IMG/VR virus record: IMGVR_UViG_3300031227_000157
Span: 1-38,383 of that record
Length of the DNA: 38,383 nt
Source of the DNA: a virus
Strand: one strand, 5' to 3'
Made by a program: the position numbers and the translations under genes. The notes below the pieces were generated by a model that was given only the letters and a program-made list of their open reading frames with translations, had not been told where the DNA came from and did not search any database. This document shows, piece by piece, positions 12,374 to 36,930 of the stretch; position 1 is the first letter of the stretch, and each line of letters begins with the position of its first letter.

Positions 12374-13270
12374 CTACTTTTGAAATTTTGCATAACCTTG
12401 ATACAATTTTTTCTCACTTTGCCAACAAGTATCCTTTTTTATAATATTTTTCTTACCATATAACATTTGTAAATTGTAAGGATTAACCATATATTTAATT
12501 GGTATATTCCTTCTGAATCCTTCTATAATTGAAAATATATGATCTAAATGATATTTACTTCTACCTCTTTCTAAATTATTAGGATTTATAATATTTTTGT
12601 ATTTTCTATAATTTCTGTTTGATAATTGTATTACATTTGCTTTATACTTTTTTAATTCTTTTAATTCCTTTTTTGTATAATTTTTCCACATAGGATGCCC
12701 TGATCCAAATCTTGATAATTTATAACATTTAGGGCATCTTTGCCCACTATGGAAATTAGCCCATCTCATCCAAAATTTATGACCTTCAGGACATTGAAAT
12801 TTAAGTTTAGTTAAAGCGTTTATGTATTCTATAGATAAAAGTTTATAATTATTTTTTTCAATTTGTTTTTTTATATATTTATATGTTAATTTTATTCCAC
12901 CAAAACATTTAGAACATCTTCTACCTGTTTTAAAATGACTCCAATTCATTTCAAATTCATGACCTTTAGGACATACAAATTTAAGTTTTAATTGAGCATT
13001 TATATATTTTTTACTTAATAATTCATAACCAGGTGCTATAACTAATATTTGTTTTTTTAATTCTTCTATAGTTAATTTATTATGTGTATTGCATATAGGA
13101 CATCTACTACCAGATTTAAAACTACTCCAGCTTGTTTTAAAGTTATGATTTTTATCACATAAAAATTCTAACTTTTTCATACATCCATCATAATTCAATG
13201 ATAATAATTTATATCCTATAGCAATTATAGGTATTTGTTCCTGTATATACTTTATATTTAATTTATTCAT
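12374..13270 (-). CDS. HNH homing-endonuclease-like protein with three treble-clef modules (copy A)
   Basis: 298 residues. Residues 1 to about 175 contain three repeats of about 57 residues with the pattern GYxLLSxxYIN, then C-x2-GH (or NH), then W-x2-F-x2-G-x-RC-x2-C, giving a Cys/His/Cys/Cys zinc site typical of a treble clef. A linker (HPMWKNYTKKELKELKKY) follows, then an HNH nuclease core (YHLDHIFSIIEGF and NPYNLQMLYGKKNI). The ATG at 13270 follows the lipoprotein stop by one base (TAAAATG); the RBS is weak. The C-terminal motif LYQGYAKF recurs in the other copies. Likely a freestanding homing endonuclease spreading among phages (established for HNH families; activity here inferred). Confidence 0.78.
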   Translation of the reverse strand: MNKLNIKYIQEQIPIIAIGYKLLSLNYDGCMKKLEFLCDKNHNFKTSWSSFKSGSRCPICNTHNKLTIEELKKQILVIAPGYELLSKKYINAQLKLKFVCPKGHEFEMNWSHFKTGRRCSKCFGGIKLTYKYIKKQIEKNNYKLLSIEYINALTKLKFQCPEGHKFWMRWANFHSGQRCPKCYKLSRFGSGHPMWKNYTKKELKELKKYKANVIQLSNRNYRKYKNIINPNNLERGRSKYHLDHIFSIIEGFRRNIPIKYMVNPYNLQMLYGKKNIIKKDTCWQSEKKLYQGYAKFQK

Positions 13271-13271
13271 T

Positions 13272-13796
13272 TTACCATTCAATTCTTAATAAGTTATGTA
13301 CTGATATTAAACTATATATGCACCATTCTATTTCAGCTTGTTTTTTATATGATTTATACCTATCTAAAGTATTTAAATCACCTTTACCATCACTTCTTAA
13401 AGGATATGTTAAAGTTTGTATAGCTGACATGCTATTATACCCAAGTGTAAAATAAGAATCTTTAGATAAAAATAAACCAACTAAATTTTGTGATAAAAGC
13501 CCTGCTCTTGCAACCCATCGTACTTTATTATTTGAAAGATTTTTATCATCAAAATATATATAAGGCTCAGTACCTTCAAGTTTTATCTTATAATCAGCAT
13601 TAAAAATTTCAAGTAATGTTATATGTGCAAGTTCATGTGTTAAGAATGAAGCACATAATCCAATTCCTATAGCCCCATAATCTTTTAATTCAGCTTTTTT
13701 AAGTTGTTTAAAGTTAGTATTTGCTATATAAATATGATCATAACTACAACTTGTAAATAAAAATACTATTAATATTATTGCTAAATATGTTTTCAC
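13272..13796 (-). CDS. Putative lipoprotein with HExxH zinc-protease motif
   Basis: 174 residues from a GTG at 13796, chosen because GGGAG lies six bases upstream and it gives a compact signal (MKTYLAIILIVFLFTSC) ending in a lipobox-like FTSC; the frame itself is open to an ATG at 13820 with no RBS. Cys17 would be lipidated. Residues 54-58 are HELAH, the HExxH zincin motif, inside a hydrophobic helix (GLCASFLTHELAHITLLEIF). No third zinc ligand can be assigned with confidence. Phage lipoproteins often act in superinfection exclusion; a membrane-anchored metallopeptidase is the other reading. It lies between nrdJ with its small neighbour and endonuclease copy A. Confidence 0.66.
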   Translation of the reverse strand: MKTYLAIILIVFLFTSCSYDHIYIANTNFKQLKKAELKDYGAIGIGLCASFLTHELAHITLLEIFNADYKIKLEGTEPYIYFDDKNLSNNKVRWVARAGLLSQNLVGLFLSKDSYFTLGYNSMSAIQTLTYPLRSDGKGDLNTLDRYKSYKKQAEIEWCIYSLISVHNLLRIEW

Positions 13797-14003: not shown

Positions 14004-15740
14004 TTAAAGTTCACAAGATCCTGATGAGCATTTAACAGTATCAATATCAGCATCAGAATCAAACTGTTCTTTTTTTAAGAATTCTTTAATTTTTTCTTTA
14101 GATATTTTATTTAAAATTTGACCTTCTCTACTACCATCTACATAAATTGTTACTCCTTTTAAATCACGAATGTATTCCAATAATAATGAAGATAATTTTT
14201 CATGTGAAATATCTTCTTGAAAATTAATTGTTTTTGATACACCACCATCAACATATTTTTGTACAATACTCTGTGTTTCTAAGTGATCTTCTGGTTTTAA
14301 ATCAGAAGTATCTACAAACCATTCATCTATGTCATCAGTATTATCTTTTAATGCTTGTTTGTATAAATCATGAATATATATTCTATTACTTATTTGATCT
14401 TTTCTTTCATAAGCTTTAAGAAATAATGGTTCTATACCAGAACTAACTCCTGCAATTAATGATATAGTTCCTGTGGGGGCGATGGAAATACCTGTTACAC
14501 ATCTTGACCCATACTTTTTAATATCCATTCTTAATGATGGTGGTAATGTTCTTATAAATTTTGCCTTGGAATATGCAGTACTATCAAATTTAGGAAATGC
14601 ACCTTTTTCACTTGACAATTTAACTAAACTTTCATACACACAGTTTCTTACAAATTTCGCTAATTTTTCTGTTTCTTCCAAAGCTTTAGTTGATCCATAT
14701 CTTAATTTTTTAGCAAATAAATAATCAGCAAGTCCCATATATCCTAAACCTATACGTCTTGAATCAAATGATTTTGTTTTAATTACGTCTAATACATAAT
14801 TATTACAGTCTATAACATCATCTAAAAATCGTACACTATTTTCAATAGTAGCTTGTATTTTTATCCAGTTAGTATTCCCACCTTTACCTACAAATTTAGG
14901 TAACACAATACTACCTAAACAACATGTCTCATATGGAGATAAAATAGCTTCTCCGCAAGGATTTGTGGTGATTACAGGTGCATAAAAATACGAATTATTT
15001 TCACGTAAATTATCCCAATTTATTAATCCAGGTTCTGCTGATGTAAGCATATTAGAAATTAATGTATCCCATAGAGTTCTTGCATCTATTGTATCATATG
15101 TTTTTTGTGCAAATTTTAAATCCCACATATTATTGGATTCAACTCTTTGTAAAAAATCTTCTGTAACTCCTACTGATATATTATAATGAGGTATAAGTTT
15201 ATCTACTAATTTAGCATTTATAAATTTTAAAATATCAGGATGCCTAACATTCATAAGAGCAAGTCCAGCAGCTCTTCTTTGACCACCAATCTGTATTGTT
15301 TCAGCTATAAAATCTGAGGCTTTAAGAAAGGATATAGGCCCTGATGACTTACCACCTACACCACGAATAGGAGCACCTTCTGGTCGTAATGAAGAGAGAT
15401 TAGTCCCAATACCCCCACCGGAACCCCATAAACAGAAGGAGTCAGAAAAATATTTACCTATCTCTTCTCTTGAATCTCCAAATGGAAGTACATAACAATT
15501 AAATAAAGACCCTTTTATTCTTCCCGCATTTCTAAGTATCCTACCACCAGGAATAAATTCAAGATTAAAAATAGATTCAGTAAATATATCAGAGTATTTC
15601 TTTCTATTTATTTCTGATGATTCAGCCATTGCTATACTACTACCAACTCTAATTGCAAGTTCACTCCATTTAGTTTCAACACCTTCTACAAAATATCTAC
15701 TATCAGCTACTTTAAGTGGATTACCCATTAACTCTGGCAT
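14004..15740 (-). CDS. nrdJ: Class II (adenosylcobalamin-dependent) ribonucleotide reductase
   Basis: 578 residues from the ATG at 15740. It reduces ribonucleotides to deoxyribonucleotides by a cobalamin-initiated thiyl radical. Key features: FIPGGRILRNAGR, then Cys82 (FNCYVLPFGD), GSGGGIGTNLSSLRP, GGQRRAA, the N260-P-C262-G-E264 active-site motif and Cys273/274 (ETCCLGS) as redox partner. The C-terminus CSSGSC is the expected thiol relay. There is no ATP-cone, and no NrdB or glycyl-radical activase nearby, which fits class II. The frame is open to 15776, but AAGGAG at 15752-15759 suits the ATG at 15740 (11-base spacing) best. The start is overlapped by endonuclease copy B, and an RNR-like N-terminal remnant lies just upstream. 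Works with Dut and ThyX in dNTP supply. Confidence 0.88.
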   Translation of the reverse strand: MPELMGNPLKVADSRYFVEGVETKWSELAIRVGSSIAMAESSEINRKKYSDIFTESIFNLEFIPGGRILRNAGRIKGSLFNCYVLPFGDSREEIGKYFSDSFCLWGSGGGIGTNLSSLRPEGAPIRGVGGKSSGPISFLKASDFIAETIQIGGQRRAAGLALMNVRHPDILKFINAKLVDKLIPHYNISVGVTEDFLQRVESNNMWDLKFAQKTYDTIDARTLWDTLISNMLTSAEPGLINWDNLRENNSYFYAPVITTNPCGEAILSPYETCCLGSIVLPKFVGKGGNTNWIKIQATIENSVRFLDDVIDCNNYVLDVIKTKSFDSRRIGLGYMGLADYLFAKKLRYGSTKALEETEKLAKFVRNCVYESLVKLSSEKGAFPKFDSTAYSKAKFIRTLPPSLRMDIKKYGSRCVTGISIAPTGTISLIAGVSSGIEPLFLKAYERKDQISNRIYIHDLYKQALKDNTDDIDEWFVDTSDLKPEDHLETQSIVQKYVDGGVSKTINFQEDISHEKLSSLLLEYIRDLKGVTIYVDGSREGQILNKISKEKIKEFLKKEQFDSDADIDTVKCSSGSCEL

Positions 15741-16029
15741 ATGTATCATTACTCCTTTTAATATTAGATAATTCATTAATAAATTTAAAATATCCTATAT
15801 ATAATTCTTCTTTATTTTGCCAACAATTATCATGTTTAGATATATTTTCAAACTCTGTAAGCATTTGTAAATTATAAGGATTAGAAATATATTTAGCTGG
15901 TATATTATTTTTAAATCCACTCATTATAGAATAAATATGATCAAGATGATATTCATGTTTACCTCTTTTCAGAATCAAGCCAGCGTGAATAAGTTCTTTT
16001 GTAAATGAACTCTTGGTACAATGTATCAA
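15721..16029 (-). CDS. Minimal HNH endonuclease-like ORF without zinc modules (copy B)
   Basis: About 100 residues carrying only the HNH core: KRGKHEYHLDHIYSIMSGF, NPYNLQMLTEFENIS and the family end motif LYIGYFKF. There is no ATG; the only candidate start near an RBS is the TTG at 16029, while the GGAGGAG upstream is better placed for an ATG at 16033 in another frame. Its last 20 or so codons run over the nrdJ RBS and start. It lacks the treble-clef array of its relatives, so it is either a degraded copy or a minimal nuclease. Expression is doubtful, and a frameshift from the ATG at 16033 is an alternative. Confidence 0.55.
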   Translation of the reverse strand: MIHCTKSSFTKELIHAGLILKRGKHEYHLDHIYSIMSGFKNNIPAKYISNPYNLQMLTEFENISKHDNCWQNKEELYIGYFKFINELSNIKRSNDTYARVNG

Positions 16030-16033
16030 ACAT
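15959..16033 (-). pseudogene. Remnant of a class II RNR N-terminus, cut by endonuclease copy B
   Basis: A 24-codon ORF with an ideal GGAGGAG and an ATG at 16033. The peptide begins MFDTLYQEF and contains IYKRTYSRWLDSEKR. YKRTYxRWL is the conserved N-terminal motif of class II RNRs of the Lactobacillus RTPR type. The frame stops exactly where homology to the HNH family begins in the overlapping frame. It looks like the 5' end of an RNR gene interrupted or replaced by an endonuclease event; the intact nrdJ starts about 290 bases downstream with its own RBS. Confidence 0.6.
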
Positions 16034-16059
16034 ATATTTACTTCTCCTCCTTCAATTTA

Positions 16060-17304
16060 TTATAATATAGTTATATGGTATAATAATTGTTTAGTTATTT
16101 CTGATCTATAATTTTTTGCTTCATTTTTTGAATACCAAAGCATTTGTAAGTTATTTTTATTAGAGATAATTATAGGTGGTATGTTATTTTTAAATCCATC
16201 AGATATTGTATAAATGTGATCTAAGTGATAATTATATGTACTCCTTTTTAGTTTTTTAGGATTTATATAATAATAGTATTTTCTATAATTATGATTTGAT
16301 AACTGAGCTACATTTTCTCTATAGTTAGAAAATTTTTCTATATCTTCTTCTGTATAATTTTTCCAATTCCAATGTCCTTTACCTCTTGTATTTTCTATAG
16401 CACATACAGGACATCTTTTACCACTTTGAAAATTATTCCATGACATTTTAAATTCATGGTTATTTGAACATATAAATTTAAGTTTTGTATGAATATCTTT
16501 ATATTCAGATAACATTTTATAATTTATAGGTTTTATATAATTTATAATATATTCCGAAGTAATTTTATTACATTTAGTACATCTATTCCCATTACTATAA
16601 AAACTTGTCCAACTCATAAAAAATATATGTTTATTTGGACATTGTATTTTTAGTTTTTCTTCACAATGATTATAATTTAATGATAGTAATTTATAACCTT
16701 TTATATTTTCTATCTCCTTTTTAACAAATTTATAGGTAAGTTTTTTTGATTTATAATAACATATAGAACACCTATTACCTTGTTGAAATGAAGCCCATTC
16801 TACTTTATAAATATGACCTTTATTACATTTTAATTTTAATTTTTTATGAGCACTTATATATTTAGTAGATAATAATTCATATTTATTTTTTTCTATGTAA
16901 CTTTTTACATATTTATATGTTAATTTTTTTAATTTATTATTACATACAGGACATATAGTACCTTTATTAAAAGTTGCCCAAGAAGTCTTATATATATGAC
17001 CTTCAGGGCATTGAATATCTAACTTTAATTTAGTATTTATATAAGTTTTGGATAATAGTTTATAACCTCTTTTTTCTGTTTGATCTTTTATAAAGTTATA
17101 AGTAAGTTTCTTATATTTAATAGAACAATTTTTACATCTTCTCCCTTCTTTAAAATGCTTCCACATCATTTCAAATTTATGTCCTTTACTACAACATAAC
17201 TTTAATTTTGAATTAGCATTTATATACTCTTTAGATAATAATTTATAACCTTCCTTTTCTACTTGTTCTTTTATAAATTTATATGTTAATTTTTTTCTAC
17301 CCAT
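16060..17304 (-). CDS. HNH homing-endonuclease-like protein with five treble-clef modules (copy C)
   Basis: 414 residues, the longest family member. Five modules of about 57 residues each carry C-x2-GH/NH/KH and C-x2-C pairs (for example CSKGHKFEMMWKHF then GRRCKNC; CPEGHIYKTSWATF then GTICPVC). A linker (GHWNWKNYTEEDIEKFSNYR) and an HNH core (YHLDHIYTISDGF, ISNKNNLQMLWYSKNEA) follow. The start ATG at 17304 has GAGGAG 11 bases upstream; an ATG nearer the RBS opens only a three-codon frame. It lies directly upstream of the RNR remnant and copy B. A freestanding homing nuclease with a modular zinc DNA-binding array is the best reading. Confidence 0.78.
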   Translation of the reverse strand: MGRKKLTYKFIKEQVEKEGYKLLSKEYINANSKLKLCCSKGHKFEMMWKHFKEGRRCKNCSIKYKKLTYNFIKDQTEKRGYKLLSKTYINTKLKLDIQCPEGHIYKTSWATFNKGTICPVCNNKLKKLTYKYVKSYIEKNKYELLSTKYISAHKKLKLKCNKGHIYKVEWASFQQGNRCSICYYKSKKLTYKFVKKEIENIKGYKLLSLNYNHCEEKLKIQCPNKHIFFMSWTSFYSNGNRCTKCNKITSEYIINYIKPINYKMLSEYKDIHTKLKFICSNNHEFKMSWNNFQSGKRCPVCAIENTRGKGHWNWKNYTEEDIEKFSNYRENVAQLSNHNYRKYYYYINPKKLKRSTYNYHLDHIYTISDGFKNNIPPIIISNKNNLQMLWYSKNEAKNYRSEITKQLLYHITIL

Positions 17305-17309
17305 TCATA

Positions 17310-17459
17310 TTAATTCTCCTCTAATTCATTAATATTTTCAATATAAATATTAATTGCTCTAGTAAGTTTTTTTTGAGCAGTTTCTTGATGTTCAAATGAA
17401 CAAGCATTAAGTAAATCCGATCTTGCATATATTATTAAATCCATTATTTCTTTAATCAT
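17310..17459 (-). CDS. Small helical hypothetical protein
   Basis: 49 residues (starts MIKEIMDLIIYARSDLL, ends INIYIENINELEEN), predicted all-helical. Its ATG overlaps the dUTPase stop (TGATG), so it is coupled to dut. The GAGGAG inside its last codons acts as RBS for endonuclease copy C. Function unknown. Confidence 0.62.
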   Translation of the reverse strand: MIKEIMDLIIYARSDLLNACSFEHQETAQKKLTRAINIYIENINELEEN

Positions 17460-17893
17460 CAACTATCTCCAGTTGAACCAAAACCATCAGTCCCACGTTC
17501 TGAATCTTTAAATTCTTCAACTTCTTCAAATTCTGCTTTATAAAATTTCCTTAATACACCTTGCATTATTTTTGTATGTTTTGGTATATTCAATGTTTGA
17601 TTAAAAGAATTATTCCTGAATAGTACAAGTACTTCTCCAATATAATGAGAGTCCACAATACCTACGGAGTTTGATAAATAATTAGGATGATTACCACTTA
17701 GTCCAGACCTTGGGTATAGCTCAAGGGAGTGACCATCAGGTATATCCATTGCAATACCTGTTCTAATAATTTTAGTGGTAAGGCTTTCAACTGATTCATC
17801 CTCAAGTGTATAAAAATCCATACCTGCATCTGTTTCATGTGCATATGTTGGAATTAAAGCATCTTCATGTAATTTCTTAATTTTTACTTTCAA
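17459..17893 (-). CDS. dut: dUTPase (dUTP diphosphatase)
   Basis: 144 residues, normal length for trimeric dUTPases. It hydrolyses dUTP to dUMP and PPi, preventing uracil incorporation and feeding thymidylate synthesis. All five motifs are seen: DAGMDFYT (I), PRSGLS (II), VGIVDSHYIGEV (III, with catalytic Asp), GVLRKF (IV, diverged) and RGTDGFGSTG (V, P-loop-like tail). The start is a TTG at 17893 with GGAG six bases upstream; no in-frame ATG is near. It stands close to thyX and nrdJ, making a pyrimidine-deoxynucleotide module. Confidence 0.92.
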   Translation of the reverse strand: MKVKIKKLHEDALIPTYAHETDAGMDFYTLEDESVESLTTKIIRTGIAMDIPDGHSLELYPRSGLSGNHPNYLSNSVGIVDSHYIGEVLVLFRNNSFNQTLNIPKHTKIMQGVLRKFYKAEFEEVEEFKDSERGTDGFGSTGDS

Positions 17894-20393: not shown

Positions 20394-21932
20394 TTATTTC
20401 CCCCTTAATATTTTATTAAGTTGTTTTTCATAACTTGAACTTTTCTTAGGATCTACAGTAATTACAACATCTTTATCCCCATCTTCTGTTCTAATACTAA
20501 TGGGCTTTCCCCAAATATTATATATATGTCTCATAGTTTCTTTTGCATACTTAGTATCTAAGTCTTGACCCTCCCAAGAATGCTTTAACATCATACCACC
20601 ATTACCATTATGATCACCATTTATTATTTGAATCTTAGGCATTCCATTGTAAGCAAAACTTCTTACAATTAAATCTTTAATTTTTTGAGCATCACGTACT
20701 CCAATAATAAAATCATCATACTCTTGTTCTTCTTTTATAAAATAAATATATAAATCTAATTCTTTGACAAGATCTGTAGTTAAAAAATCCTGCATCATAA
20801 ACCAATCTGTATAAGTTTCTACACAATTTAATACTTTTTCAAACCCTTTACCATCCTTAGTATCCCAATTTTCTTTCTCTTTTTGATCTGTTATTTCATT
20901 ATATTCATCACCATGTTTACCTTTATCCCATCTATCTATTACATCTTCCCAGATCCTTGAACCGATTAAATAAGGATTCATACTTGTAGGATTCTTTCCT
21001 TTAACAAGTGAATTTGAATAATTAAATTGAGCATGTTCACTTGAATTTAAAAGGTCTTCTTCAAACAATTGATTCATTATTTTTTCGTGGCAAAGAACAG
21101 CAAATCCTTCATTTCCGAACTTAGTTTTCATTTGGGGCCAGAAATATCTACCAACTTCTCTTAATGTTTCAAGTATATCTCTAGACCAATCTTCAAGTAT
21201 TAAAGAATTATCTACAATGTATCTAAGAAAATCTTCAGTAGGTTCAATCGGAGTTCTATTTTTTAAATCTTGGTATAATTTACTATTGTATAATTCTATA
21301 TCCATATCTGGTTTTTGTTTACTCAGTACTGGATTTGATAAACTTCCAAATTGAGATTTATCTATAGCATGTGCTTCTTTTCTTTCTTGTTTAAATATTC
21401 TTTTAAGTTTTTCAATTTCTGTTTCATTGTCGAAAGGACTTGAATGAAAATATAAAGCATGACCTGCATCAACAATTTTTTCTACTTCATCAATTCCATA
21501 TTTCTTTTCATATTTATTAAACCTTAATGTTGCTTCACTCATAAAATCCATGATATCTTTACGAGTATTTTTAAAAAATTCATTCATTGTAAAGAATGCA
21601 GAATGACCAACACAATGTGCAATAATTAATACTTGAATTGCAAATGTATTAGTTTTCATTAAGTATGCTCTAGCTGGATCATTATTAATAATTACTTCGT
21701 ATGGAAGACTCGGGTTTACATTTTCATATATAGTTCTTTGTTTTTCGTAGTCTCTTCCAAATTTCCAATTTGACAAGTTAGTTGGAATGTTGTATGCCAT
21801 GACCTCAAGCATCTTTTGTGCAGGAATAATATCAAACTCAATAGGACATGTAACTAGTCCCATTTCCTCAACTGCTATTTGCATAATGCGTTCTTCAAGT
21901 TTTGCTAATCTCATCAATTCTTGATTAGTCAT
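20394..21932 (-). CDS. spoVR: SpoVR family protein
   Basis: 512 residues, close to the usual SpoVR/YcgB length. Family hallmarks include FDIIPAQKMLEVMAYNIPT, the NWKFGRDYE and NTFAIQVLIIAHCVGHSAFF region with conserved His, the segment DAGHALYFHSSPF and a C-terminal HSWEGQDL. SpoVR was named for a role in Bacillus spore cortex formation; in Gram-negatives the homologue YcgB is linked to starvation responses with PrkA/YeaG and YeaH. It is the third member of that set here, 13 bases after the DUF444 gene, with AGGAGG upstream. Its molecular activity is not established. Confidence 0.92.
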   Translation of the reverse strand: MTNQELMRLAKLEERIMQIAVEEMGLVTCPIEFDIIPAQKMLEVMAYNIPTNLSNWKFGRDYEKQRTIYENVNPSLPYEVIINNDPARAYLMKTNTFAIQVLIIAHCVGHSAFFTMNEFFKNTRKDIMDFMSEATLRFNKYEKKYGIDEVEKIVDAGHALYFHSSPFDNETEIEKLKRIFKQERKEAHAIDKSQFGSLSNPVLSKQKPDMDIELYNSKLYQDLKNRTPIEPTEDFLRYIVDNSLILEDWSRDILETLREVGRYFWPQMKTKFGNEGFAVLCHEKIMNQLFEEDLLNSSEHAQFNYSNSLVKGKNPTSMNPYLIGSRIWEDVIDRWDKGKHGDEYNEITDQKEKENWDTKDGKGFEKVLNCVETYTDWFMMQDFLTTDLVKELDLYIYFIKEEQEYDDFIIGVRDAQKIKDLIVRSFAYNGMPKIQIINGDHNGNGGMMLKHSWEGQDLDTKYAKETMRHIYNIWGKPISIRTEDGDKDVVITVDPKKSSSYEKQLNKILRGK

Positions 21933-21945
21933 TTAATCTTCCTCC

Positions 21946-23238
21946 TTATTTATTATCACTCTCAAACAAAAAATGTTTTAAAGCTGACCAAATATGGTCT
22001 CTTTTCTGAATTTTAGCCAATAAGAATCTTAAATCTTCATTCTTATAAAAACTTGTACCATCAACACTTCTGACTGTAAATTTCCAAGTATCTTTAATCT
22101 TCTTTATAAGGGAATCACCATAAGAAGTATCAGGTTTAATTTCAGTATACCCAAGCATATTAATTTTCTTATCTAACATAATTTTAATTTCTTTAATAGT
22201 ATCTTCTGGCCCCCAGTCATCCCCGTCAGATAAGTATTGCACATAAACATTCCATTCAGTACTTGGGTATTCTGCTTCAATTATCTCATTAGCAAGTTTA
22301 AAACCTGATGCACATTTAGTCCCACCTGATTCTCCTCTATTAAAAAAGTCATCTTCGGATACAAGTCTTGCTTCAGTAGTATGAACAATAAATCTTATCT
22401 CTACATTATCATATTTTTTTCTTAAAAACTCTACCATCCAGAATAACATAGATCTTGCTAAATACTTTTTATCAGTATCCATACTTCCTGAAACATCCAT
22501 AATTGCTATCACAACTGCATTAGAATGTAATTCAAAATCTTCTTCTATTTGTTTGAATCGTAAATCATCATCTTCAATATAAATACCATCTGAAGTTTCA
22601 GTTAATTTACCTTCTTTTATAATAGTAATAGCATCTTCTATATCACCTCTTGCTTGTAACAAAGCAAGTCTTCCTTCTTCAAAAGAACATCCTGTATCAT
22701 TCATAATTTCACCAATAAATGCAGATGTTCTTTTGATAGCTTCAATCATTGTTCTCTTTTTATGAATTCTGGGTATAATACCTTTCTTAGATACAGTATC
22801 AAATTTCCAACCTTTAGGTACAAGTTGTTTAGCTTTAGTTTTTTCTTCAATCCAAGGTAAACCAAGATCTTCAAACATAATTTTAATCAAGTAATCAATA
22901 TCAACTTCAGTTTCCATATAATCTTCACCAACTTCTTCTCCTGGTTTATTACCTTTGCCTTTACCATTTTTTCTTTGACCTATTGAATCCCCTTCATCGC
23001 CATCCCCTTGACCAACTCCACCCTTTGTACCTTTCTGCCCATGAATAAATCTGAAATCCTTCAATCCTTTAATTGGTATACGTACTTTTCTTCCTCTCTT
23101 TTTTGTAATTATTGATTCTTCAGAAATTACGTCCTTTACATTTTTGCGTATATTCTCATCAATGAGATCTCTGTGCCTCTGGGCATCTTTCTCACCTTTA
23201 CGAGACATGTCCCAATCCGAGTGATATATAATACTCAT
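21946..23238 (-). CDS. yhbH: DUF444 family protein (YhbH/YeaH), VWA-like
   Basis: 430 residues. The N-terminus (SDWDMSRKGEKDAQRHRD) and the Gly-rich acidic linker (residues about 68-105) are typical of DUF444. The C-terminal half is a von Willebrand A-like domain with the MIDAS motif D248-V-S250-G-S252 and SDGDDWGPED. Metal-dependent protein binding is expected. In bacteria it is encoded between prkA and spoVR, and may be a partner or substrate of the PrkA kinase. The RBS AAGGAG overlaps the stop of the GIY-YIG gene just upstream. Confidence 0.92.
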   Translation of the reverse strand: MSIIYHSDWDMSRKGEKDAQRHRDLIDENIRKNVKDVISEESIITKKRGRKVRIPIKGLKDFRFIHGQKGTKGGVGQGDGDEGDSIGQRKNGKGKGNKPGEEVGEDYMETEVDIDYLIKIMFEDLGLPWIEEKTKAKQLVPKGWKFDTVSKKGIIPRIHKKRTMIEAIKRTSAFIGEIMNDTGCSFEEGRLALLQARGDIEDAITIIKEGKLTETSDGIYIEDDDLRFKQIEEDFELHSNAVVIAIMDVSGSMDTDKKYLARSMLFWMVEFLRKKYDNVEIRFIVHTTEARLVSEDDFFNRGESGGTKCASGFKLANEIIEAEYPSTEWNVYVQYLSDGDDWGPEDTIKEIKIMLDKKINMLGYTEIKPDTSYGDSLIKKIKDTWKFTVRSVDGTSFYKNEDLRFLLAKIQKRDHIWSALKHFLFESDNK

Positions 23239-23241
23239 TCT

Positions 23242-24228
23242 TTACTCCTTATTTATTTTTTTATCAAACCAGTGTCTTATTGTTCTTTTAGAAATATTTA
23301 ATTTTAAAGAAATTTTATTCCATGAGTAATTTTTACTTCTCATTAAAAATGCTTCATCTCTTATTTCTTTTGAATACTTTCTGCTACCCATACAAACTTT
23401 TTTTATAATTTTTATACCATTACTCCTACATATATTCCCTATAACTTTTGATGGCATATCCATTATATCAGCTATATCATCATATATTAATTCTTTTTTT
23501 CTTAGTTTAATAATTTTATTAATAATTTCATCATCATATATTTTTCTAGGTTTACTCATTTTTATTTTTGTTTCTTCTGTGTGCTTCCTACCATAAAATG
23601 GATTTTTATCACCAATATTTTGTTTATTCATATTAGAACGTGCTTTATTTTTCTTCCCTAACATTGGATTAACCCAACCTTTTTTATATCTTTGTATCAT
23701 CTCTTCAGACTTAGCTTCTTTCATTTCATTAGATTGTTTTCTACCAGTTGCTTTTTCTGATATTTTTTGTTTTGTTTCTTCTGTATGATTCATACCATAT
23801 GTTGGACTGTCTTCACCACATTTACCATACATAGGATTATTTTTACCTTTTCTTTTTTCACTTAATTCTATTTTTTTATCTAATGTCCAATATTCTTCTA
23901 TTTTTATTTTTTGTTTTTCTGTCCATTTATAACCTACTGTACCATCCCCACCCATAGTTAAATTATACCCGTTAGGAGCAAATGTATTATATTGTTTTAT
24001 ATAATGAAACTCCATCTCATCTAATTCTTCTTTTGTATCACATTTTTCAATAATCTTCCATTTAAATTTATTTATTCCATATTTTTTTATGGCAGAATGA
24101 AAATAATCATTTTCATGTGTTTTTAATGATCTTGATTTATGACTGCATATTCGTAGTTTTAAATTTAATATTGTTTGTCCTATATACATTTTACCATTTA
24201 CTTTATTAGTAGCTTTATAGATTATCAT
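23242..24228 (-). CDS. GIY-YIG homing endonuclease with NUMOD3 repeats
   Basis: 328 residues. The nuclease domain starts at once: IYKATNKVNGKMYIGQT (GIY...YIG form), then the catalytic Arg-containing LRICSHK and the Glu/Asn region EFHYIKQYN. A chain of NUMOD3-type motifs follows (GKNNPMYGK, DSPTYGMNHTEETK, KNPFYGRKHTEETK), then a C-terminal helix-turn-helix (SWNKISLKLNISKRTIRHWF). This is the architecture of freestanding Seg-like and intron-encoded endonucleases. It stands between prkA's small downstream genes and DUF444. Its ATG overlaps the upstream stop (TAATG), and its last codons NKE plus stop contain the RBS for DUF444. Confidence 0.88.
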   Translation of the reverse strand: MIIYKATNKVNGKMYIGQTILNLKLRICSHKSRSLKTHENDYFHSAIKKYGINKFKWKIIEKCDTKEELDEMEFHYIKQYNTFAPNGYNLTMGGDGTVGYKWTEKQKIKIEEYWTLDKKIELSEKRKGKNNPMYGKCGEDSPTYGMNHTEETKQKISEKATGRKQSNEMKEAKSEEMIQRYKKGWVNPMLGKKNKARSNMNKQNIGDKNPFYGRKHTEETKIKMSKPRKIYDDEIINKIIKLRKKELIYDDIADIMDMPSKVIGNICRSNGIKIIKKVCMGSRKYSKEIRDEAFLMRSKNYSWNKISLKLNISKRTIRHWFDKKINKE

Positions 24229-24383
24229 TACGATTCATTTTTTACTCCTTCAAGAAATTCAATATAAGAAATTAATTCAATTATCTGACTACAACCCCAT
24301 GATTCACAAAAACATAGGGCATCATCCTTGCCACAACATTCTTTTACACTATCTTTATACCCTTCTATATCTGGTCGTTCTAT
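24228..24383 (-). CDS. Small Cys-rich protein with apparent ATA start
   Basis: 51 codons (ATA-initiated: IERPDIEGYKDSVKECC, then CFCESWGC, ending EGVKNES). AAGGAG stands six bases before the ATA, exactly the spacing used by the genes on both sides (AAGGAG plus six bases plus ATG). The frame upstream is closed by the previous gene's TAA. The five Cys could bind zinc. Either a rare ATA start is used or the ATG has mutated to ATA. A readthrough of the upstream TAA in the same frame is a less likely alternative. Function unknown. Confidence 0.5.
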   Translation of the reverse strand: MERPDIEGYKDSVKECCGKDDALCFCESWGCSQIIELISYIEFLEGVKNES

Positions 24384-24386
24384 CTT

Positions 24387-24605
24387 TTACTCCTTATTAT
24401 TCTTTTTAATATAAAATCCACTTTTTGCAGGGGCTTTATATAATGTCACATACCCTAATTCTTTTAATAATTGGTTTTGTATAGTACTTATATCTTCCAT
24501 CAATTTTTCTAATTTTATTACTTTTTCTTTAAGTCTCATTTTACCTACCTCCATTCTATAACATTGAGGATTATTATTTTTTGTACTACATTCAGGATTA
24601 CTCAT
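24387..24605 (-). CDS. Hypothetical protein with coiled-coil segment
   Basis: 72 residues. The N-terminus has MSNPECSTKNNNPQCYR with two Cys; residues 24-50 are a probable coiled coil (RLKEKVIKLEKLMEDISTIQ). It sits directly downstream of prkA, 21 bases from its stop. Its last codons NNKE and stop contain AAGGAG for the next ORF. No family recognised. Confidence 0.6.
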   Translation of the reverse strand: MSNPECSTKNNNPQCYRMEVGKMRLKEKVIKLEKLMEDISTIQNQLLKELGYVTLYKAPAKSGFYIKKNNKE

Positions 24606-24626
24606 CCTCTACTCCTTATAATTTTT

Positions 24627-26582
24627 TTAATTTTCTTTGCGTAAAATTTCTGCTACGAATTGTAAAAGTGTATTTGCACATTGATCACAGTAACCTTTTT
24701 CTATTAATTTCTTAATTGCTTCACTTCGTTTCTTCTCAGTTTTTGGATTTACATTTGTAGTATCTGCAATAGAGAGACTTACTACATTTTTAAGATCTTT
24801 AAGAAGGCGTTTTTCGATGCTTTCCTTAAGAGGGTCATAGTCTTTAAATGTAAAAGCCTTACCTTGTCTGAGCATTGTAGCTTCGTAAACGAAGATTTGA
24901 TTTCTAAATTCTCGTTTAGAATTCTCAGGAACTTCAATAATTTCCTCAAGAGATCTCATAAGTTTCTCATCAGGATCATGATACTCTCCAGTTAATTCAT
25001 CATGAACTTTTTCATTCTTACAAAATGATGTCACGTTTTTCATATAATTTTCAAACAAGGATTGAGCTTGTTCATCATATGCATAAATAAATGCCATATT
25101 AACTTCTTTTTTAGCAATCTCTTTATATTCAGATGCAACAGAATCTTTCTCACCAGTTAAAAGTAAATTATATTCAGTAACTTCTTCCTCTGTATAACCA
25201 ACCTGATGATCAAAATTACTTCTTAATGCTTTAATAACATCAATAGCATTAATACAATTCTTATCTTCTTTCATACCAAGTGCAATATTCAAAGCATTGA
25301 TAATGAATCTTGGAGAAATACCTGTCATCCCTTCCCCATTTTTCCTACCTTCTTCAATCAATTCTTTTAAATCAACTTCTGATTTTTTAAATTCTTTTGT
25401 TACTTCCCCATTATAAATTTTCATTTTTTCTGTCAAAGAAGATACTTTATTTGATTTAGAAAGCCTTGAAAGAATAGCAAATTGAGCTGCAATCTTGAGT
25501 GCTTTAGGTGCAATATGAATTCCTCTAAAATCAGATTCACGGATCATCTTCTCATAAATTTTAACTTCATCATCAAGTTTCAAATTCCAAGGTACATAGA
25601 TAGGATAAATTCTATCATGTAATGCTTCATTCTTTTTATCAGTTTTAAATGAGTTATATTCTGAAAAGTTGGTATGGCCAAGTATAAGTGTGTCAATATA
25701 CATCTGAGGGAATCCAGGAGACTTGATTAAACTTTCTTGTGCTGCTGTGAGGAGAACATAAAGAAGTTTAATATCTATTTTAAGTATTTCTATGAATTCA
25801 ACTACACCCCCATTAGCAACTTGTAATTCACCTGTAAATTCATATCCTCTTGGGTCTGTTTCTGTATGACGATGCATTTTAGATAAATTAATACGTCCTA
25901 TTAATTCCGATACATCTTGACTTTTATTATCCATAGGGGCTATTGTACCAATGCCTGATCGTTTCTGTTCAGAAAATTGCATAGTATTTACAGGAACGGA
26001 ACCCCAATCAACAACTCCATTTTCATCAGTGTAATTATTATCAATATTATGTTGACATACTGGACAAAGATTACCTTCAATTTTAACACCTAATTTATCT
26101 GACCATGAATCTCTATCACTTAATGGAATTGCATGTAAAGGCTCTTCATGTAAAGGACATCCTGCAATACCAAATTTTAAAGTATCATCATTTTCAAGTA
26201 CTCTTTTAATAAGAGCAGCTATAGTTGATTTACCTGAACTAACTGGACCAACCATAATTAAAATACGTTTACCTGTTTCAGTTCGTCTTGCACTTGCTTT
26301 CATAAATTTCATAAGATCATGGATAGCTTCTCTCGTTCCGTACATTTTTTCATCAAAATATTTATATTCTACAAGATCCTCATACCCAGCAGTCTTAAGT
26401 GCATCATCAACTGGTCTTGTACCAAATTTCATAATTGCATTGTAGATTCTACCTGATGCAAAATTTGCAATATCTGGATCTTTTTCTACTTTGTATAAAT
26501 ATTCTAGTAAAGTTCCATTCCATTTTGTAATACCTTTGCCTTTTTTTTGTTCAGCTATCATGCTTTTAAAATTATCACTCAT
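24627..26582 (-). CDS. prkA: PrkA family serine protein kinase / AAA+ ATPase
   Basis: 651 residues, the normal PrkA/YeaG length. The Walker A motif is G112-PVSSGKST-120, followed by the PrkA-specific segments PLHEEPLHAIP, a CPVC pair, ELIGRINLSKMHR, GVVEFIEILK and GHTNFSEYNSF. In bacteria PrkA is a Hanks-unrelated serine kinase with an AAA+ domain; homologues are induced in starvation, and a Bacillus homologue has also been linked to protease activity. It is the first of the prkA-DUF444-spoVR set, separated from DUF444 by two small ORFs and a GIY-YIG endonuclease. The RBS AAGGAG is close to the ATG. All recognisable motifs are intact, so it is probably functional. Confidence 0.92.
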   Translation of the reverse strand: MSDNFKSMIAEQKKGKGITKWNGTLLEYLYKVEKDPDIANFASGRIYNAIMKFGTRPVDDALKTAGYEDLVEYKYFDEKMYGTREAIHDLMKFMKASARRTETGKRILIMVGPVSSGKSTIAALIKRVLENDDTLKFGIAGCPLHEEPLHAIPLSDRDSWSDKLGVKIEGNLCPVCQHNIDNNYTDENGVVDWGSVPVNTMQFSEQKRSGIGTIAPMDNKSQDVSELIGRINLSKMHRHTETDPRGYEFTGELQVANGGVVEFIEILKIDIKLLYVLLTAAQESLIKSPGFPQMYIDTLILGHTNFSEYNSFKTDKKNEALHDRIYPIYVPWNLKLDDEVKIYEKMIRESDFRGIHIAPKALKIAAQFAILSRLSKSNKVSSLTEKMKIYNGEVTKEFKKSEVDLKELIEEGRKNGEGMTGISPRFIINALNIALGMKEDKNCINAIDVIKALRSNFDHQVGYTEEEVTEYNLLLTGEKDSVASEYKEIAKKEVNMAFIYAYDEQAQSLFENYMKNVTSFCKNEKVHDELTGEYHDPDEKLMRSLEEIIEVPENSKREFRNQIFVYEATMLRQGKAFTFKDYDPLKESIEKRLLKDLKNVVSLSIADTTNVNPKTEKKRSEAIKKLIEKGYCDQCANTLLQFVAEILRKEN

Positions 26583-32583: not shown

Positions 32584-32783
32584 TTTTTCTCCTCCAATAT
32601 AAATTTAATTGGTTTAGACATATCCCAAAAAGAATCTAAAGGTTCATCTCTTGCCATACTTTTCCAAGTTCTCCAAACTTTAATTGCTTCTTCCTTTGTA
32701 TTATAAATATGAGGTCCATCTTCTGGATCAAAAATAATCCATAGTTTTTTGGCACCTTCCTTTACTTTACTAATTTTTTTCAT
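32580..32783 (-). CDS. Small hypothetical protein
   Basis: 67 residues. The middle (WIIFDPEDGPHIYNTKEEAI) is a short beta hairpin followed by a helix of the kind seen in small phage proteins; the end (SKPIKFILEEKK) carries the RBS for the next gene. Start and stop overlap neighbours by four bases. Function unknown. Confidence 0.6.
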   Translation of the reverse strand: MKKISKVKEGAKKLWIIFDPEDGPHIYNTKEEAIKVWRTWKSMARDEPLDSFWDMSKPIKFILEEKK

Positions 32784-33874
32784 TTCAATAATTCCTTTAA
32801 ATATTTCTGTCTTTGTTTTTTAATTTTAAATTTTTCATAACTTTGATACAATTTTTTCTCACTCTGCCAAGGATCATCATGTTTAATTAAATTTTTCTTC
32901 CACCAAAGCATCTGTAAATTATAAGGATTAGCTAAATATTTAGCTGGTATCTTTTTTCTGAATCCTTCTATTACTGGAAATATGTGATCCATGTGATATT
33001 TATAATTACTTCTTTCCTTATTGTCTGGATTTATTATATCTTTATATTTATTATAATTTCTATTTGATAGGCTTATTACATATTTTCTATATTTATCTAA
33101 TTGATTTAATTCTTCTGGTGTATAATTTATATAATAACACTCAGGACATTTTTGACCTTGTGAAAAATTTCCCCAAGTCATACTAAATATATGACCTTCA
33201 GAACATTTAAATTTAAGTTTTGAATGAGCACCTATGTATTCAGTACTAACTAATTCATAATCTTTTTGTATAATGGGTATTTGTTCTCTCACATATTCAA
33301 TAGTTAATTTTCTTAATTCATTGTAACACTCAGGACATTTTCGATCTTGTGAAAAACTATTCCAAGTTATTTTAAATACATGACCTCTATCACATTTAAA
33401 TTTAAGTTTTGAATGAACACCTATATATTTAGTACTTAATAATTCATAACCTTCTTGTATAATAGGAGTTTGTTCTTTAACATACTCAATTGTTAATTTT
33501 TTACACTCAGGACATTTGTTACCTTGTGAAAAATTATCCCAAGTCATACTAAATATATGACCTTCAGAACATTTAAATTTAAGTTTTGATTTAGCACCTA
33601 TATATTCAGTACTCATTAACTTATAACCTTCTTGTATAATAGGTGTTTGTTCTCTCACATATTCAATAGTTAAATATTTTGATTCATTGTAACATTCAGG
33701 ACATTTACTACCATGACTAAAATTACCCCAACTTGATTCAAATATATGACCTCTATTACACTTAAATTTAAGTTTTGAATGAACACCTATATATTTAGTA
33801 CTTAATAATTCATAACCTTCTTGTATAATAGAAGTCTGTTCTTTTATATATTCAATAGTTAATTTTTTACTCAT
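32780..33874 (-). CDS. HNH homing-endonuclease-like protein with four treble-clef modules (copy D)
   Basis: 364 residues. Four near-identical modules (LTIEYVREQTPIIQEGYxL, then YIGxHSKLKFKC and GHIF, then KCPEC) are followed by a linker (NYTPEELNQLDKYRKYV) and the HNH core (YHMDHIFPVIEGF, NPYNLQMLWWKKNLIKHD). The modules resemble each other more closely than in copies A and C, pointing to recent internal duplication. It has no strong RBS and follows the sbcD stop by nine bases. It lies between sbcD and the small genes leading to sbcC, in the middle of a functional pair. Confidence 0.78.
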   Translation of the reverse strand: MSKKLTIEYIKEQTSIIQEGYELLSTKYIGVHSKLKFKCNRGHIFESSWGNFSHGSKCPECYNESKYLTIEYVREQTPIIQEGYKLMSTEYIGAKSKLKFKCSEGHIFSMTWDNFSQGNKCPECKKLTIEYVKEQTPIIQEGYELLSTKYIGVHSKLKFKCDRGHVFKITWNSFSQDRKCPECYNELRKLTIEYVREQIPIIQKDYELVSTEYIGAHSKLKFKCSEGHIFSMTWGNFSQGQKCPECYYINYTPEELNQLDKYRKYVISLSNRNYNKYKDIINPDNKERSNYKYHMDHIFPVIEGFRKKIPAKYLANPYNLQMLWWKKNLIKHDDPWQSEKKLYQSYEKFKIKKQRQKYLKELLK

Positions 33875-34819: not shown

Positions 34820-35819
34820 TCTCCTCTTCCTTTATATTATATTCAGGGTAAGTATCAAAATTAAGTTCAGGATAATCTTTTAATATTTGTTCAACATTAG
34901 ATTCTTTTAACTTTTTATCTTTGTATAATATTATTTCATTTTTAAATGCTTTGAATTCAGTTTTGTTTTTAGGTTGTAAAATATTCCTGTCAACAAGTAA
35001 TCTTATATATCCTGATAAATATGGAATACCCTTCTTGAAGAAATGTTGAAAAGTAATTGATCTCATTGCAGGACCAGATCTAGTTTTGATTACTTTAGCT
35101 TTAATATAATTACCTGTAATTTCCCCTCCTAAACTGTCATCTTTTATATCTTTACCATTATTAAGTTCAATTCTGTAGTTAGTAAAATATTTACCTGCTT
35201 CACCACCTGTAACAGTTGTATTAGGTCCAAAAAGTACTCCTGGTTTCCAAGTTCTTTGATTACTAAATACAAATAAAGTTTTATTATCTATATAAGGAAG
35301 TACTCTTCTAAACATTCGATGGATATCCTTAGCCTTACGTCCCATGTCTGACCGGTCTATTTTTGCAGTATCATCAAATGCTGCTATAGAATCAATTCCT
35401 ATAAATTTATAAACATCTTTAGGTATATTAGATAGTGTTTCAATAAGAGCTTGTGTAGCATCTGGTATAATAGGAATATCTGTAGGTTTGAATTTAATAA
35501 CCCTACTATTATCTATTCCTAAAAATTCAGATCTATTATTATAATACGCATTTTCTCTATCTAACCATATACCTACAGTATTATATTTTTTTTGCATATC
35601 TGCTAACATTAGTTGCATTAATGTCGTTTTTCCACTGCTATTAAATCCGCTTAATTCCACTAAATTTTCTAGGTTTACCCCACCTTCGAGAGATAAATCA
35701 AGAGCCTTATTTCCTGTAGATATAAACTCTATAGTTTCAACTTCATCAGCAGCAACCTTAAGTGATCCATAATTCTTTTTTAATTTATTTGCTAATTTTT
35801 GTATGTCGAATTCTGCCAT
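34806..35819 (-). CDS. uvsX: RecA/UvsX-like recombinase
   Basis: 337 residues. Walker A is G58-FNSSGKTT-66, the catalytic Glu lies in WLDRENAYY, Walker B is FIGIDSIAAF, and a mobile loop region follows (GPNTTVTGGEAGKYF). The C-terminus is acidic (EEENASE). Length and layout fit phage strand-exchange proteins (T4 UvsX and bacterial RecA lineages); the symbol is by function and not proof of orthology. AAGGAG for its start lies inside the last codons of endonuclease fragment F. With SbcCD and the resolvase-like nuclease it forms the recombination module. Confidence 0.86.
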   Translation of the reverse strand: MAEFDIQKLANKLKKNYGSLKVAADEVETIEFISTGNKALDLSLEGGVNLENLVELSGFNSSGKTTLMQLMLADMQKKYNTVGIWLDRENAYYNNRSEFLGIDNSRVIKFKPTDIPIIPDATQALIETLSNIPKDVYKFIGIDSIAAFDDTAKIDRSDMGRKAKDIHRMFRRVLPYIDNKTLFVFSNQRTWKPGVLFGPNTTVTGGEAGKYFTNYRIELNNGKDIKDDSLGGEITGNYIKAKVIKTRSGPAMRSITFQHFFKKGIPYLSGYIRLLVDRNILQPKNKTEFKAFKNEIILYKDKKLKESNVEQILKDYPELNFDTYPEYNIKEEENASE

Positions 35820-36340
35820 AAACTCTCCTTAGTTAGTTCAAATTTATAATATCCTAAATATAATTCTTTTTTTGATATATCTGAATCTCCAGATTTACTT
35901 ATATTTTCTTTACTACCTATTATTCTTAAATTATAAATATTAGAAATTATTTCAATAGGAATGTTATTAATATATCCATCAATAACAGAATATATATGAT
36001 CTAAGTGATATTTTTTACCTCTTCTTAATTTATCATTATTAATAACATTTATATATTTATAATAATTTCTTCTTGTAATATTATCTACAGCATTTCTGTA
36101 TCCTGTATATAATAGTATATCTTCTTTTGTAAAATTTTTCAATTTACATGTTGGGCATCTTCTACCAGAATGAAAATTACCCCACTTTACAAAATATATA
36201 TGACCTTTATTGCACTTTACTTTTAAAGGAGTGCTATTATTAATATATACTTTAGATAATAATTTATAATTTTCTTTTTCAATTTGTTTTTTTACAAATT
36301 CATAAGTTAATTTATGTTTACCAAAACAAATTGAACATCT
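35792..36340 (-). pseudogene. HNH endonuclease-like gene lacking a start (copy F)
   Basis: 182 codons open after a TAA, with no ATG near an RBS; only a TTG at 36142 could start the last 116. It has one treble-clef module (RCSICFGKHKLTYEF, CNKGHIYF, RRCPTC), the linker KNFTKEDILLYTGYR, the HNH core (YHLDHIYSVIDGY, IYNLRIIGSKENIS) and the end motif LYLGYYKF. Its 5' end joins the 3' end of copy E in a different frame, and its 3' end overlaps the recombinase start. Best read as the 3' half of a deletion chimera; frameshifting from copy E is the alternative. Confidence 0.6.
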
Positions 36341-36930
36341 TTATCACTATAGTTTTTCCAATTAGGATGAGTCTTTCCTTTTAATGTTTTGAAATAACAT
36401 TGTTTGCATCTTACACCATTTAAAAAACTAGAAAATACAGTTTTTCCTTTATGACCTTCTGGGCATATATAATTTAAATGAGTATTTGCATTTAAATATT
36501 TAGTATCTAAAAGTGTATAATTAAATTTTTCAAAATATTCTTTTACATATTCAAATTTATACCTTCTTTTATCATTACATATAGGGCATCTATTACCTTT
36601 TTTAAAATTTGTAATAGTAGTATTCCATATATGATTTTCTGGACATAAACATTTTAATTTTTCTTTTTTACTTTTACATTTAGTAGATATTAAATTATAA
36701 TTTTCATTTTTAAATAATTTTTTTATAACATCTATATCAATTTTAGAACCTGTGCATATAGGACATCTTGTTCCTCCACTTTTAAAATGATTCCATGTTG
36801 TTTTAAATTTATGACCTTTTCCACACTGAAACCACATCATAGTTTTACTATTTATATAAGAAGTACTTAATATTTTATAATTAATTTTATTACAATAATC
36901 TTTCATATATTCAAAAAAGTTATTTCTCAT
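36307..36930 (-). CDS. Treble-clef zinc protein, truncated HNH endonuclease family (copy E)
   Basis: 207 residues with three modules (CGKGHKFKTTWNHF then TRCPIC; CPENHIWN then NRCPIC; CPEGHKGK then RCKQC). It reaches the linker GKTHPNWKNYSDKD, where the family would continue to the HNH core, but ends eight residues later (VQFVLVNIN). Homology resumes at once in another frame as copy F. So the nuclease domain is lost. A start at 36930 is assumed; AAGGAG favours an ATG at 36934 that opens only four codons. It could still bind DNA without cutting. Confidence 0.6.
   Translation of the reverse strand: MRNNFFEYMKDYCNKINYKILSTSYINSKTMMWFQCGKGHKFKTTWNHFKSGGTRCPICTGSKIDIDVIKKLFKNENYNLISTKCKSKKEKLKCLCPENHIWNTTITNFKKGNRCPICNDKRRYKFEYVKEYFEKFNYTLLDTKYLNANTHLNYICPEGHKGKTVFSSFLNGVRCKQCYFKTLKGKTHPNWKNYSDKDVQFVLVNIN

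Follow-up and report, generated by a model that had tools for sequence, protein, structure and literature searches.

Phages exchange RNR genes often; to our knowledge, direct sequence traces of such exchange are rarely visible. Two class II subclasses are relevant here: RTPR, the monomeric adenosylcobalamin-dependent class II RNR (TIGR02505, PF17975, phrog_367), and NrdJ_Z (TIGR02504), which is of the dimeric type. Which RNR subclass a phage carries bears on the substrates used, triphosphates or diphosphates (PMC10547690). In Aeromonas phage Aeh1, the endonuclease gene mobE splits nrdA, and both halves belong to one enzyme (PMC2988022). Homing in T4-like phages leads to co-conversion of flanking sequence (PMC2988022). 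Surveys have located homing endonuclease genes in the vicinity of RNR genes as well as at the boundaries of phage gene exchange (PMC10448857).

Here, we describe an RNR locus in a viral contig of 38,383 bases with 28.5% GC, the whole of which was analyzed and is referred to as the window. Similar to Aeh1, RNR coding sequence stands beside an HNH endonuclease gene. In contrast to Aeh1, two RNR subclasses have contributed the pieces, and the enzyme encoded downstream is complete. The locus shares with the published ‘HEG islands’ the endonuclease genes close to essential genes, RNR among them, the exchange borders and the domain swaps (PMC10448857), whereas it differs from them in that 72 nt of the other RNR remain at the joint. 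We consider it probable that the locus represents a recombination scar, located at the boundary of an exchange between genes of the RTPR and NrdJ_Z types, in either direction. It is an unusually legible instance of the nuclease-bordered gene exchange already published for phages, not a new process. The joint between RTPR and NrdJ_Z can be read base by base inside an endonuclease gene, which speaks for homing endonucleases as markers, and perhaps causes, of RNR swaps.

Gene order around nrdJ

The window encodes a tail fibre, an exonuclease, a class II RNR, a dUTPase, ThyX, a PrkA-DUF444-SpoVR module, SbcC/SbcD and a UvsX-like recombinase, and HNH genes of the putative homing type are abundant in this genome. 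The PrkA-DUF444-SpoVR module (20394-26582, minus strand) is complete, comprising a PrkA kinase (24627-26582), DUF444 (21946-23238) and SpoVR (20394-21932), with a homing endonuclease gene at 23242-24228 inside it. Its PrkA relatives in other viral contigs are 63-67% identical. The records of the PrkA-SpoVR phages at this level of identity (63-67%; L016-L026), several of which are fragments, contain neither nrdJ nor RTPR.

Along the minus strand, the locus runs from dUTPase through a 50-codon ORF, an HNH gene, a spacer, a 24-codon frame and the 3' fragment of another HNH gene to nrdJ. The features, with the evidence for each, are as follows.

17459..17893, minus strand: dUTPase (phrog_135)
17310-17462, minus strand: 50-codon ORF in the interval between dUTPase and HNH, without relatives in the fetched loci
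16060..17304, minus strand: intact HNH homing-type endonuclease with CapR/DUF4379 zinc-finger repeats and a C-terminal HNH (PF21817, PF14311, phrog_559, alignment)
16034..16059, minus strand: 26-nt spacer with the ribosome-binding site GGAGGAG (direct reading of the sequence)
15959..16033, minus strand: putative RTPR relic, codons 1-24 and an immediate stop (L013/L010 alignment, PF17975, phage tblastn, shuffle test)
15962..15972, minus strand: junction CTGAAAAGAGG (ends of the RTPR and HNH homologies, alignment)
15721..15972, minus strand: 3' part of an HNH gene, from the catalytic core to the C-terminus (DNA identity with L285, paralogue identity, phrog_5104)
14004..15740, minus strand: predicted complete nrdJ of the NrdJ_Z subclass, 578 aa from ATG 15740 (TIGR02504, PF02867, starts of relatives, Cys columns)
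12374..13282, minus strand: paralogous HNH endonuclease on the far side of nrdJ (closest paralogue of the fragment within the window)

The GC content of the locus forms a patchwork, with 20.9% in the HNH gene at 16060-17304, 34.7% in the relic, 21.2% in the HNH fragment, 30.4% in nrdJ and approximately 32% in dUTPase, which backs a composite origin. A scan for promoters and terminators gave no signal exceeding that of shuffles.

A 24-codon relic of an RTPR-type gene

The frame from ATG 16033 to 15962 on the minus strand, which ends at a stop codon at 15961-15959, encodes MFDTLYQEFIYKRTYSRWLDSEKR. A strong ribosome-binding site, GAAGGAGGAG, is read 10 nt 5' of its ATG, and the HNH gene at 16060-17304 adjoins the relic on its upstream side. 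In a Pfam search with the 24-mer, the sole match was PF17975 RNR_Alpha (E 0.00098), at 20 bits, which is below the whole-domain cut-off of 26.4 bits, as expected for 24 residues. The relic contains the N-terminal YxRTYSRWL segment of RNR_Alpha, a hallmark of RTPR. Searching 50,697 phage records by tblastn at E<=10 matched 44 records; among the 30 matches listed, 27 are annotated as RNR, two lack annotation and one is hypothetical. The RTPR of L013 is the closest match, with 19 of 20 residues identical from Met1 (95%; E 3e-7 in the window) and a DNA identity of 83% over 47 nt, and L010 is 75% identical across all 24 residues. Meanwhile, a profile built from three RTPR N-termini gave 43.8 bits on the relic, compared with at most 13.5 bits in 200 dinucleotide shuffles of the whole window. 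The original prediction had recognized in this frame, with its strong ribosome-binding site, the N-terminus of a class II RNR. Our results confirm this and refine it: judged by these comparisons, the 24-mer is the N-terminus of an RTPR-type (monomeric, class II) RNR, not one of the subclass of the adjacent nrdJ.

Only these 24 codons are left. The catalytic barrel and active site of RTPR are absent after the relic, and RTPR queries revealed no RTPR body beyond the first 20-24 residues elsewhere in the window. Their other alignments in the window are weak, consisting of matches to nrdJ itself at 21-25% identity and chance matches. The codon differences between the relic and L013 comprise 12 synonymous and four non-synonymous changes, so the relic resembles a recently functional coding sequence. 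This small amount of decay may reflect either a recent event or preservation by some factor. Translation from the former RTPR start probably still yields a 24-residue peptide, and the relic is most likely non-functional today. It is very unlikely that the relic has been kept for a function, whether as a leader tuning operon expression or as a site that the adjacent HNH endonuclease targets; if it has, the locus would represent an endonuclease-driven exchange of RNR subclass with a preserved signature.

The present nrdJ is of the NrdJ_Z subclass by curated cut-off

The nrdJ product scores 456.6 bits against TIGR02504 (NrdJ_Z), above the curated cut-off of 399.95, compared with 76.4 bits against TIGR02505 (RTPR), of which the cut-off is 340. 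The conserved cysteines and the NPCGE motif are kept, and C87, C267, C278 and C581 are invariant in alignment A1. As far as sequence can tell, nrdJ is a full member of NrdJ_Z and encodes a complete class II enzyme of the dimeric type, which is not split. The enzyme itself is unremarkable, with 55-57% identity to its nearest known relatives. A profile scan identified viral relatives (L106-L130 and L161) at 43-57% identity, and single-protein scans of viral contigs found no close relatives of either NrdJ or the HNH fragment. In the NrdJ tree, the window sequence is placed inside the clade of viral relatives with support of 100/100, the nearest by path being L106, L109 and L108.

The start of nrdJ, ATG 15740 (or 15749), falls within the 3' end of the HNH frame and is preceded by AAGGAG. 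It had indeed been proposed to start downstream, with its own ribosome-binding site inside the end of the endonuclease. The conserved RY follows after 14 residues from ATG 15740, or 17 from ATG 15749, and all 22 relatives with a readable N-terminus start 11-17 residues before it. For L118, the script value was empty, an earlier RY having been caught, and the start MTLSKNSEDTFKSRY gives 13 by eye. By motif search, no YKRTYSRW-like segment was present near nrdJ in the loci of the relatives; one chance match lies approximately 3 kb downstream of nrdJ in L131.

These starts bear on the idea that the endonuclease split nrdJ in the way of mobE in Aeh1 nrdA, so that the 24-mer would be the true N-terminus of NrdJ and might act in trans. 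The order of the parts, an RNR N-terminus, HNH and RNR, does look split, and Aeh1 is a precedent (PMC2988022). However, the relic peptide and NrdJ belong to different subclasses, 22 relatives that lack the 24-mer have the same start, and NrdJ has its own subclass N-terminus (MPELMGNPLKVADSRYF, to be compared with M..LSDNALxVAxSRYF). On the basis of the subclass mismatch and the starts of the relatives, we reject an Aeh1-like split as highly improbable. The earlier suggestion that the endonuclease invaded nrdJ is thereby contradicted, and so is a former joining of LDSEKR to VETKWSELAIRVG. HNH-free relatives that share the nrdJ start and lack a YKRTY segment are also what the suggestion itself had named as evidence against it. 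We also tried an in-frame LDSEKR-VETKW join, and noticed that its place is already filled by MPELMGNPLKVADSRYF, which is homologous to the N-termini of the relatives. Annotators should neither extend nrdJ upstream nor join it to the preceding frame.

The HNH fragment and the junction

The fragment at 15721-15972 carries the motifs LKRGKHEYHLDHIYS..NNIP..ISNPYNLQML..N..K, which extend from the HNH catalytic core through the C-terminus. Residues H16, D18, H19, N38, N41, N50 and K53 are invariant between the fragment and three paralogues. Its closest paralogue, at 12374-13282, is 61% identical over 64 aa at the C-terminus and 74% identical in DNA over 189 nt; the genes at 16060-17304 and 32780-33874 are also similar. 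Over 215 nt starting at 15962, the fragment has 77% DNA identity to a full-length HNH gene of L285. We therefore assign the fragment, by homology, to the C-terminal catalytic end of the CapR/treble-clef HNH family, of which the window has three intact paralogues. Compared with CapR/DUF4379 zinc-finger HNH homing-type endonucleases (phrog_559/681/5104), the fragment keeps the catalytic core and C-terminus but has lost the DNA-binding repeats and its translation start. RTPR sequence stands upstream in place of the N-terminal CapR/zinc-finger repeats, which 16060-17304 does have, and no start codon of the fragment frame bears its own ribosome-binding site. None of the full-length HNH relatives in other viral contigs (L285-L325) is located within 4 kb of an RNR gene.

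We noticed another CapR-HNH gene that is broken or fused, at 35792-36930 on the minus strand. Its zinc-finger repeats (36307-36930) end in a stop, and repeats and an HNH core resume in another frame down to 35792.

At the junction, the RTPR homology runs to 15962 (L010 residues 1-24), while the HNH DNA homology starts between 15962 (L285) and 15972-15968 (paralogues). The two homologies overlap by at most 11 nt, CTGAAAAGAGG, at 15972-15962. The frame of the relic had been said to stop exactly where HNH homology begins in another frame; the other frame is right, the HNH homology being in the +1 frame relative to the relic, but the exact point gives way to this overlap. In the RTPR frame, CTGAAAAGAGG reads ...(S)EKR, the end of DSEKR, and one base further on it reads LKRG of HNH. 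Such an overlap is as expected from microhomology-mediated joining, and it accounts for the change of frame. That the joining occurred in this way at CTGAAAAGAGG we infer from homologues rather than from parental sequences. A programmed +1 frameshift (AAG AGG UAA A) producing a peptide-HNH fusion was considered by eye and dropped, as there is no recognized slippery pattern.

The insertion lies immediately 3' of a strongly conserved coding motif, and HNH genes are frequently intron-borne, which would suit a group I intron or a similar self-splicing element that carries the HNH gene, with exon 1 spliced to nrdJ. On the other hand, no Rfam match at the gathering threshold was obtained in the whole window, and no intron at E<=5 in 15500-17500. 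The element would have only about 220 nt, mostly HNH coding, and its exons would come from different RNR subclasses, making this explanation extremely improbable.

A chimeric assembly of two phages is very unlikely as well. The locus is known from a single metagenome contig, of which we found no near-identical record. However, assemblers require overlaps longer than 11 nt, and HNH paralogues of the same family occur on both sides of the junction (12374, 16060 and 32780), consistent with one genome.

Possible origin of the scar

In the recombination scar that we favor, two parental arrangements would have met. One would have carried, after the dUTPase region, an HNH endonuclease gene and an RTPR-type RNR gene. 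In the other, an HNH endonuclease gene would have abutted the ribosome-binding site of an NrdJ_Z-type nrdJ. At some 8-11 shared bases, CTGAAAAGAGG, codons 1-24 of RTPR would have been joined, out of frame, to the last third of the second HNH gene. The body of RTPR would have been lost together with the DNA-binding repeats of that HNH gene, leaving nrdJ_Z whole. Two phages may have recombined illegitimately, an event that HNH cleavage nearby probably started or favored, or a deletion may have taken place in a phage that had both RNRs for a short time. The involvement of HNH cleavage as the trigger is inferred, as is the order of events.

dUTPase and RNR genes in other phages

In L106, L108 and L109, the dUTPase stop is 17-21 nt before the nrdJ ATG; in the window, HNH and RTPR sequences amounting to approximately 1.7 kb separate the two genes. 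The dUTPase adjoins nrdJ_Z in L106, L108 and L109 but RTPR in L013, L269 and L104, and the dUTPase tree favors neither RNR kind as the resident. Phages L104 and L105 have 26% GC and a CapR-HNH gene approximately 2-3 kb before dUTPase, which is followed by RTPR. A phage type with the full set of donor-side ingredients exists in these records. An intact parental junction, with HNH directly before either RTPR or nrdJ_Z, occurs in no phage that we found.

These neighborhoods weigh on the direction of the exchange. It is possible, though we would not favor it, that RTPR was the resident and nrdJ_Z the newcomer with its HNH gene, RTPR being removed by homing-driven replacement. Consistent with this, dUTPase also adjoins RTPR (L013, L269 and L104), the relic has kept the original start and ribosome-binding site, and HNH genes flank nrdJ_Z on both sides. 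However, the dUTPase-nrdJ_Z pair is kept in the three nearest relatives, which suits nrdJ_Z as the resident, and the dUTPase tree does not decide. Of the original proposal that an RTPR-type gene was replaced by a different NrdJ, the exchange with NrdJ_Z stands as the best reading, with either gene as the possible resident.

Interrupted RNR genes are also seen among these phages. AT-rich phages have very long RTPR frames, of 1870 aa in L267 and L271 and 943 aa in L269, and likewise in L104 and L105, which are probably due to inteins. The RTPR of L105 has an intein-like insertion after LYILMCG. In L131, L132 and L134, an interruption of NrdJ_Z lies close to the NPCGE active-site region, for which inteins or endonuclease insertions are the probable cause.
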